Positions 994-39,318 of a stretch of DNA of 43,725 bases are shown piece by piece. Position 1 is the first letter of the stretch, and each line of letters opens with the position of its first letter. The notes beneath the pieces were generated by a model. It was not told the origin of the DNA, ran no database searches, and was given only the letters and a program-made list of their open reading frames with translations. Position numbers and translations under genes: made by a program. The stretch is from Luminiphilus sp. (lineage in GTDB: Bacteria; Pseudomonadota; Gammaproteobacteria; Pseudomonadales; Halieaceae): positions 1 to 43,725 of the forward strand of contig JAQWYY010000178.1 in the NCBI GenBank assembly GCA_029253705.1. Direction: 5' to 3'.

Positions 994-1872
994 TTAGGCT
1001 TCCATAGCAACGCGTACTTTTGTCATAGCATTTTTTTCAAGCTGACGAATTCTTTCGGCAGAAACACCGTACTCATCAGCTAGCTGATGAAGAGTGGCCT
1101 TATTATCATCGAGCCAACGCCGTTGAAGAATGTCCTGACTGCGCTGATCTAGTGCCTGAACAGCCAATCCAAGACGCGAGTTGCTATCACTTTCAAAATC
1201 CTGCTGTTCAACCTGCTCTGCAGGGTCTGCGCTTTTATCCTCAAGATATAGCGCCGGAGCATAGGCGGTCTTGTTATCATCATCGTCATCATCGGGCGCA
1301 TCAAAACAAGCGTCATGGGCTGAAAGGCGCATTTCCATTTCCATAACATCTTTGACTTCAACCCCTAAATCATCGGCAACTGCTTGCGCTTCGTCAGCAG
1401 ACAGCCATTGCAACTGCTTTTTGGCACTGCGAAGGTTAAAGAATAATTTGCGTTGAGATTTGGTAGTAGCAACTTTAACAATTCGCCAGTTGCGGAGAAT
1501 AAATTCATGAATCTCGGCTTTAATCCAGTGCACAGCAAAAGAAACCAAACGCACACCTTTGTTGGGGTCAAAACGTTTTACCGCCTTCATAAGACCCACA
1601 TTTCCCTCTTGTATGAGGTCGGCCTCGGCAAGCCCATAGCCAGAATAGCTCCGCGCAATATGTACCACAAAACGTAAGTGAGCGAGCACTAACTCTCGCG
1701 CAGAGTCAACGCACTCGCTGTAGTATAGCTTTTCGGCTAAGGCCTGTTCACGCTCAGCAGACAAAATTGGAATACCGCTAACAGCCTGAACATAGGCGGG
1801 CAAATTTGCCCCTGGGGTCATAGACATGACTGCCCCGTGACCCATTGCTACTGTTTTTCCTGATTCGGACAT
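994..1872 (-). CDS. rpoH: RNA polymerase heat-shock sigma factor RpoH (sigma-32)
   Basis: RpoH directs RNA polymerase to heat-shock promoters. The 292-residue protein has the sigma-2 core ([16 protein letters not shown]), the RpoH-specific box QRKLFFNLR at about 140-148, which marks it as RpoH rather than RpoS or RpoD, and a C-terminal helix-turn-helix ([13 protein letters not shown]). Before region 4 there is a very acidic insert with six consecutive Asp (about 194-199), somewhat richer in Asp than in E. coli. A strong Shine-Dalgarno (GGAGGAGG) lies 8 nt before the ATG. The gene follows ftsYEX as in many gammaproteobacteria. A perfect CIRCE element sits 32 nt upstream, implying HrcA control. 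Confidence 0.97.
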
Positions 1873-1903
1873 TTTGTCATCCTCCTCCCTTCGATTCCCT
1901 ATT

Positions 1904-1930
1904 TTAGCACTCTACATTAGAGAGTGCTAA
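1904..1930 (-). promoter_or_regulatory. CIRCE operator (predicted HrcA binding site) upstream of rpoH
   Basis: The sequence TTAGCACTC, nine bases, GAGTGCTAA matches the CIRCE consensus at all 18 conserved positions and with the exact 9-bp spacer. CIRCE is the operator of the heat-shock repressor HrcA, usually found at groESL and dnaK/hrcA operons. Here it lies between ftsX and rpoH, ending 31 nt before the rpoH start, so it would act on rpoH transcription or on the mRNA 5' leader. The hrcA gene itself is not in this window. Confidence 0.9.
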
Positions 1931-1965
1931 TCCTGGAAAAGTTCACGATTAACCGAGGGTAAAGG

Positions 1966-37947: not shown

Positions 37948-39318
37948 TCAGTCCTTTTTCTTGTTGGGGCGCTGCCAGCCAGCAATGTTTCGTTGACGGG
38001 CACGACCTACCGCGAGCTCTTCCCTTGCTACGTCATTAGTCACCACCGAGCCGGCCGCCACAAAAGCGCCATCTGACAACGTTACTGGGGCAACAAGGGT
38101 GCTGTTAGAGCCCACAAAAACCCCATTACCAATAGAGGTTTTATGCTTATCAATCCCATCGTAATTGCAGGTAATGGTACCGGCGCCTATGTTGGTATTG
38201 GGCCCCACTGTTGTATCACCAATGTATGCTAGATGGTTTGCCTTACTACCCACACCAAAGGTGGTATTTTTAGTTTCTACAAAATTCCCAACCCGAGCAG
38301 CGTCAGCTAGAACACTTCCCGGTCGTAAGCGTGCATAAGGACCTATGCGGCATTGCTCTCCGATAACAGCCCCCTCAAGGTGGCAAAAAGGTTGTATATC
38401 GGTTCCCGAACTGACATCAACGTCCTTCAATACGCAGTGAGCGCCGACCCTAACACCATCACCCAAACGCACCTGACCTTCAAAAACCACATTAATGTCG
38501 ATGACCACATCGACACCACACTCTAGTTCACCTCTAATATCTATACGTTGACGATCAGCCACTGCGACACCTGAGGCCATGAGGGCGTCAGCTCTTTTGC
38601 ATTGCATTAGGCGCTCTAGCTCTTGCAGCTGAACGAGATCATTTACACCGTACATCTCAAGGGCATCCTCGGTGACGACCACTTCGACGGCGATGCCTTG
38701 CTGCCTAGCGAGACCTAAAACGTCGGGAAGATAGTACTCTTCCTGCGCGTTGTCATTGCTCACAGACTTCAATAATGATGCGAGCTGATCCGCTGGTGCG
38801 GCTAAAACCCCCGTATTAACCTCACAAATAAGGGCCTCTGACTCGCTGGCATCCGCCTGTTCGACCACAGCCAGAAAGCCGCCTGCTTCATCACGAAGCA
38901 CGCGCCCATAACCTCGAGGATTCTCCAGACGAGCAGCCAACATCATTGGCTTACGCTGAGCACCTCCAATTAGTGCTTGAAGGGTGGACGCAGTGATTAA
39001 TGGCACATCGCCAAATAATACCAGCACGACACTGTCTCGCTGACAAGCTGGTAGTGCGCAGCCCACCGCATGACCTGTACCCAATTGCTCTTTTTGAGAG
39101 TGAAATTTAAGTTCTTGTTGAGAAAGTGTCTTCTGAACAGAATCAGCACCGTGCCCTACAACGACATGAATCTGACTAGGATCCAGAGCCCTAGCTGTGT
39201 CAATCACATGCTGCAGTAAAGGCTTGCCAGCTAAAGTATGTAAAACCTTAGGCAGCGAGGACCGCATCCGAGTCCCTCGGCCTGCTGCCAAGATAATAAC
39301 CTCAAGGTTTTTTTCCAT
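37948..39318 (-). CDS. glmU: Bifunctional UDP-N-acetylglucosamine pyrophosphorylase/glucosamine-1-phosphate acetyltransferase GlmU
   Basis: GlmU makes UDP-GlcNAc. The N-terminal uridyltransferase domain (about 1-227) has LAAGRGTRMRSSLPKVLHTLAGKPLL and GTGHAV. The C-terminal left-handed beta-helix acetyltransferase (about 250-456) has NFVETKNTTFGVGSKANHLAYIGD and GAGTITCNYDG. Length 456 is normal. It lies between the atp operon terminator and glmS. Confidence 0.97.
   Translation of the reverse strand: MEKNLEVIILAAGRGTRMRSSLPKVLHTLAGKPLLQHVIDTARALDPSQIHVVVGHGADSVQKTLSQQELKFHSQKEQLGTGHAVGCALPACQRDSVVLVLFGDVPLITASTLQALIGGAQRKPMMLAARLENPRGYGRVLRDEAGGFLAVVEQADASESEALICEVNTGVLAAPADQLASLLKSVSNDNAQEEYYLPDVLGLARQQGIAVEVVVTEDALEMYGVNDLVQLQELERLMQCKRADALMASGVAVADRQRIDIRGELECGVDVVIDINVVFEGQVRLGDGVRVGAHCVLKDVDVSSGTDIQPFCHLEGAVIGEQCRIGPYARLRPGSVLADAARVGNFVETKNTTFGVGSKANHLAYIGDTTVGPNTNIGAGTITCNYDGIDKHKTSIGNGVFVGSNSTLVAPVTLSDGAFVAAGSVVTNDVAREELAVGRARQRNIAGWQRPNKKKD

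Follow-up and report, generated by a model that had tools for sequence, protein, structure and literature searches.

Textbook accounts keep two modes of heat-shock control apart: control through sigma-32, as in E. coli, and control through the HrcA repressor and its CIRCE operator, as in Bacillus. In E. coli, the P3 promoter of rpoH, the gene for sigma-32, is sigma-E-dependent, and in Pseudomonas the rpoH promoter is AlgU-dependent. Permina and Gelfand (2003) reportedly covered the heat-shock regulons of beta-, gamma-, and epsilonproteobacteria and may hold more predictions of CIRCE at rpoH; that study and Ueki and Lovley (2007) are said to be the likeliest prior reports of such sites. The closest described system is a prediction: a CIRCE ahead of rpoH at position −51 in Geobacter sulfurreducens, as listed in Table 8 of Rodionov et al. 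2004 (PMC545781). In Campylobacter jejuni, GroE has been shown to enhance HrcA binding (PMC8533110). Here we describe an rpoH locus from Luminiphilus sp. (Halieaceae) in which a perfect CIRCE overlaps a sigma-E-type promoter, and we compare it with rpoH loci across the family, the order, and the class.

A perfect CIRCE precedes rpoH in Luminiphilus

The window, by which we mean the whole 43,725-nt stretch analyzed, is one contig (C153) of a 2.28 Mb bin that comprises 278 contigs and is 82% complete. Its relatives place it in the Halieaceae, the named hits being Luminiphilus, Haliea, Halioglobus, and Parahaliea. Positions 1904–1930 hold TTAGCACTC-TACATTAGA-GAGTGCTAA (TTAGCACTC-TCTAATGTA-GAGTGCTAA on the minus strand, as read toward rpoH), a predicted HrcA operator that matches CIRCE with 0 mismatches. 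It is the sole match in the window at ≤3 mismatches, where shuffled sequence leads one to expect 0.03. A gap of 31 nt separates it from the rpoH ATG (1872), which is preceded by a ribosome binding site read off the sequence as GGGAGGAGG (1881–1889, minus strand). Read along the minus strand, the locus runs ftsY, ftsE, ftsX, CIRCE, rpoH, a DUF423 gene, and trmB, with an ftsX of Halieaceae type (1966–2922) as the next gene upstream of rpoH. Because the flanking genes all lie on the minus strand, rpoH is the only plausible target of this CIRCE. An earlier note on this DNA had reported an exact HrcA operator 31 nt ahead of rpoH, which we confirm, and had proposed that it is positioned to control rpoH and so to link the HrcA and sigma-32 circuits, a predicted role that the layout supports. 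Elsewhere in the window, ARAGORN calls a 93-nt tRNA-Gln (ctg) at 39128–39220, inside a 456-aa ORF (37948–39318); this is possibly a false call, or the start of the ORF is mis-set.

The rpoH ORF (994–1872, minus strand) matches the RpoH equivalog TIGR02392 with 394.6 bits. It is also a hybrid of two taxa, which the earlier note overlooked. Residues 1–110 of the encoded protein are 100% identical to those of a second rpoH–CIRCE–ftsX locus in the same bin (L001; G000:C5:14616–17140), whose Halieaceae rpoH is intact (388.8 bits), and residues 141–292 show 56% identity to L001 versus 93% to UBA7375 (Cellvibrionales; L035). The junction falls in codons 111–140 (1453–1542, minus strand), where a Halieaceae-type 5′ part meets a Porticoccaceae/SAR92-type 3′ part. 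Nucleotide identity changes taxon at this junction, and GC content drops across it from 50 to 57% to ∼40 to 48% on the foreign-looking side. That side (1 to ∼1500, minus strand; ∼40 to 47% GC) consists of trmB, the DUF423 gene, and the 3′ part of rpoH and is nearest to UBA7375; its DUF423 and TrmB products are 80% and 86% identical to those of L035 and just 35 to 57% identical to those of the window's own genus. FtsX shows the reverse, with 93% identity to L001 and 33% to L035. Thus, rpoH codons 1–110 and everything upstream are of Halieaceae type, and codons 141–292 with the remainder of the foreign-looking segment are of Porticoccaceae/SAR92 type. L001 and the window share 89% DNA identity across their common part, and the bin is a mixture of two related strains or species. 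Because rpoH is at its most conserved where the junction falls, a contig end is near, and the bin mixes two strains, a misassembly at the contig end is the most likely origin of the hybrid; true recombination inside the conserved gene is a possible alternative.

With such an ORF, the CIRCE–rpoH arrangement could itself be an artifact of a chimeric contig, but the junction, ∼360 nt downstream of CIRCE, does not separate CIRCE from the rpoH start or from ftsX, and the intact locus L001 has its CIRCE at the equal distance of 31 nt. We give an artifactual arrangement practically no chance; for CIRCE itself, L001 and the relatives described below refute it. Given that CIRCE, promoter, rpoH start, and ftsX all belong to the Halieaceae side and that L001 repeats the layout, the CIRCE finding stands.

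The bin carries hrcA and rpoE, and its CIRCEs mark rpoH and groES

The earlier note had suggested looking for hrcA in the rest of the genome, and we found it on contig C253 (G000:C253; PF01628, E = 8e-62; TIGR00331 equivalog, 317.6 bits; cut-off, 197.2). The bin also encodes RpoE (C149:24280; TIGR02939, 290 bits, above cut-off). It contains three perfect CIRCEs: the one at rpoH in the window, the one at the second rpoH on C5 (L001), and one at C194:4733. The last has a sigma-32 promoter at +34 and sits on a contig that stops ahead of groES, the gene that relatives have at this place. The usual placement of CIRCE at the groESL and dnaK operons, as stated in the earlier note, fails here for the dnaK side. 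In the bin's own genome, no CIRCE was found at hrcA-grpE-dnaK (the best match near hrcA/grpE has 7 mismatches), which places it outside the classical class I regulon, and grpE has a sigma-32 promoter (CTTGAAA…CCCCCA). We therefore rejected dnaK/grpE as a CIRCE target: the input to groES is CIRCE plus a sigma-32 promoter, and the input to grpE-dnaK is sigma-32 only.

CIRCE at rpoH is conserved in Halieaceae and tracks hrcA across the class

The family sample comprised 61 genomes from 28 genera. We detected hrcA in 58 of them, including all 48 near-complete ones, and CIRCE in 59, most with exactly two sites; as a control, the reversed pattern gave 0 sites in 60/61. A CIRCE lies before rpoH, with ≤1 mismatch, in all 55 genomes for which the rpoH upstream region was available, so the site has the conservation in close relatives that the earlier note had named as a check. 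The remaining two genomes with rpoH have it at a contig edge (L203 and L204). The second site precedes groES in every locus inspected, with the groES start ∼84 to 142 nt downstream and usually a sigma-32 promoter 33 to 35 nt past the CIRCE start.

Among 47 other named gammaproteobacterial genomes, 11 have hrcA and 12 have CIRCE, the lone mismatch between the two being a 2.2 Mb Luminiphilus MAG. Every hrcA-bearing genome in this set, e.g., those of Ketobacter and Alcanivorax, has a CIRCE at rpoH. Neither hrcA nor CIRCE was found in the Pseudomonas, Halomonas, Acinetobacter, Marinobacter, Microbulbifer, SAR92, and Enterobacterales genomes searched, and hrcA was likewise not found in the E. coli control genome. 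In a class survey with one genome per family, in which a CIRCE at rpoH was scored within 2 mismatches, we found it in 85 of 98 hrcA-bearing genomes (50 of them perfect) versus 8 of 38 without hrcA; shuffled controls gave 0/680 regions at ≤3 mismatches. The order and class searches rejected a family-specific oddity. Because CIRCE at rpoH is nearly universal in hrcA-bearing relatives, we conclude that it is a widespread wiring absent from E. coli and not an oddity of this genome. The joining of HrcA to sigma-32, which had been presented as exceptional, is not so, given the counts for the family and for hrcA-bearing families of the class and the 2004 prediction in G. sulfurreducens.

The eight genomes that keep an rpoH CIRCE without hrcA (G406, G428, G484, G489, G494, G396, G518, and G525) include some incomplete MAGs and some nearly complete ones; hrcA may have been missed or recently lost in them. 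For G406, G484, and G518, the other sampled member of the family carries hrcA. Gilvimarinus gilvus (L041), also without hrcA, has a decayed CIRCE, TTGGCAGTC-N9-TAGTGCTAG, that retains 12/16 positions over a sigma-E −10 box and is likely a relic following hrcA loss. We rejected general CIRCE decay in hrcA-less genomes, since L041 alone was convincing and the others were at or near chance.

The existence of these sites and of the decayed one allows that the CIRCE in the window is likewise a nonfunctional relic, or else a chance palindrome. Against this stand the chance expectation and shuffled controls given above and the pattern of conservation: across 53 distinct aligned upstream regions, the 18 CIRCE arm positions are near-invariant, and most of the spacer and flanks are variable. 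We regard a relic or chance origin as extremely improbable. In a separate case, a genome of the class with no CIRCE at rpoH (L406; G462:C8) has a GAACTT + CIRCE composite ahead of a clpB-like gene, which is possibly a rewired HrcA target.

CIRCE lies over a sigma-E-type promoter

An ungapped, CIRCE-anchored alignment of the 53 distinct regions showed GGGAACTTTT conserved at −16 to −7 and TAA right after the left arm; the conserved block GGAACTTTT stands 15 nt ahead of CIRCE. In the window, the alignment columns −15 to −9 before CIRCE correspond to a −35 box of sigma-E (sigma-24/AlgU) type, TGAACTT (consensus GGAACTT; 1939–1945, minus strand), which is followed after a 17-nt spacer by the −10 box TCTAA (1917–1921, minus strand). 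This promoter, TGAACTT-N17-TCTAA, matches sigma-E at 11/12 positions, and its −10 box lies within CIRCE, at CIRCE position 9. TGAACTT and the 17-nt spacer, a slight departure from the sigma-E pattern, also mark the window's genus. Most of the family has GGAACTT-N15-TCTAA, mostly with 12/12 matches and with a −10 box that shares its TC with the left arm of CIRCE; GGAACTT-N15-TCTAA is the sigma-E/AlgU consensus. Of 68 CIRCE-bearing loci, 55 have a best sigma-E match of 11 to 12 of 12, and the −10 box almost always begins at CIRCE position 7. The TAA after the arm occurs in 0/16 groES-side CIRCEs (read toward groES) and is specific to rpoH. Boxes, spacing (15–17 nt), and the presence of rpoE all agree with a sigma-E promoter. 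A strict sigma-E + CIRCE composite was found in 58/295 genomes of the order and 60/274 of the class, with 0 control matches, and 57 of the 59 composites examined stand immediately ahead of rpoH; of the other two, one lies at a distance of 286 nt and one at the end of a contig. The earlier note overlooked this superposition. Because CIRCE overlaps the sigma-E-type promoter, bound HrcA should block sigma-E polymerase.

HrcA might instead control rpoH through CIRCE by blocking a sigma-70 promoter or transcription that runs on from ftsX, with GGAACTT incidental or minor. The −10 element with its next base, TCTAAT, resembles a sigma-70 −10 box too; three Luminiphilus relatives (L007, L037, and L039) have no good −35 box; and 30 of 93 CIRCE-bearing rpoH regions class-wide have no clear one, so that other promoters must serve rpoH in those 30. 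However, GGAACTT is among the best-conserved blocks outside CIRCE and stands at sigma-E spacing, and it is present at rpoH in hrcA-less relatives as well: 36 of 66 CIRCE-less rpoH loci keep sigma-E boxes at p ≤ 0.02, including similar boxes in Pseudomonas and Enterobacterales. Sigma-E control of rpoH is, moreover, established in E. coli and Pseudomonas, which also counts against this alternative. We consider it unlikely.

CIRCE could also work at the RNA level, forming a hairpin in the 5′ UTR of rpoH mRNA that affects stability or translation, and not as a DNA operator. It can form a stem-loop, it lies close to the ribosome binding site, and RNA functions of CIRCE have been suggested for other bacteria. 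Yet because the −10 box lies within CIRCE, transcription is predicted to begin at about the right arm; a sigma-E transcript would then carry one arm and no hairpin, which makes an RNA role unlikely for that transcript. The presence of CIRCE at rpoH also tracks hrcA, a pattern not expected of a pure RNA role. Taken together, we judge an RNA role to be very unlikely.

Discussion

We think it quite likely that this CIRCE functions as an HrcA operator superimposed on a sigma-E-dependent rpoH promoter. HrcA binding, repression, and sigma-E transcription are here predicted from sequence, and the GroE feedback on HrcA is carried over by analogy with other bacteria. In the proposed circuit, HrcA aided by free GroE chaperonin would occupy CIRCE in nonstressed cells, covering the −10 box and start site and shutting out sigma-E RNA polymerase, so that sigma-32 synthesis would be low. 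Under heat or envelope stress, unfolded protein would take up GroE, HrcA activity would be lost, and sigma-E activity would rise; loss of HrcA would derepress rpoH and groESL, and sigma-32 would then drive groESL, grpE-dnaK, and the remaining regulon. Once GroE is restored, HrcA would become active again. HrcA would thus gate both sigma-32 synthesis and GroE in a feed-forward loop with feedback, repressing groESL directly and, via rpoH, indirectly.

If the operator is functional, HrcA and sigma-32 act in series in most hrcA-bearing Gammaproteobacteria: a repressor that senses the chaperonin gates the transcription of rpoH, from a promoter that also reads envelope stress. We lean toward a further reading, in which a sigma-E −10 box embedded in CIRCE is the ancestral rpoH control region in Gammaproteobacteria (in the GTDB sense). 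Within ∼40 bp, this arrangement would combine an HrcA-mediated reading of chaperonin status with a sigma-E-mediated reading of envelope stress, and the scheme of E. coli and Pseudomonas would be derived, having arisen after hrcA loss, with regulation resting on post-translational control of sigma-32. The arrangement offers a directly testable reason for genomes with rpoH to have kept hrcA, and it makes E. coli the exceptional case in the comparison.

CIRCE at rpoH is already known as a prediction, and its overlap with a sigma-E promoter is new here; the selected passages covered by our literature search do not describe a CIRCE over a sigma-E promoter. The E. coli P3 and Pseudomonas AlgU promoters resemble the present one in transcribing rpoH from a GGAACTT…TC(A/T)AA-type promoter, but their lineages have neither hrcA nor a CIRCE over the −10 box. 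G. sulfurreducens has the identical perfect CIRCE consensus at rpoH and also a CIRCE at groESL; it differs in being a deltaproteobacterium, in having a further CIRCE at hrcA-grpE-dnaK-dnaJ, and in being a one-species prediction, and the passages at hand describe no sigma-E overlap (PMC545781). The proteobacterial HrcA/CIRCE systems at groESL, as in Agrobacterium, rhizobia, and Campylobacter, share the operator, the repressor, and groESL as the constant target; unlike those systems, the present one leaves out the dnaK-side operon and has rpoH as a second constant target.
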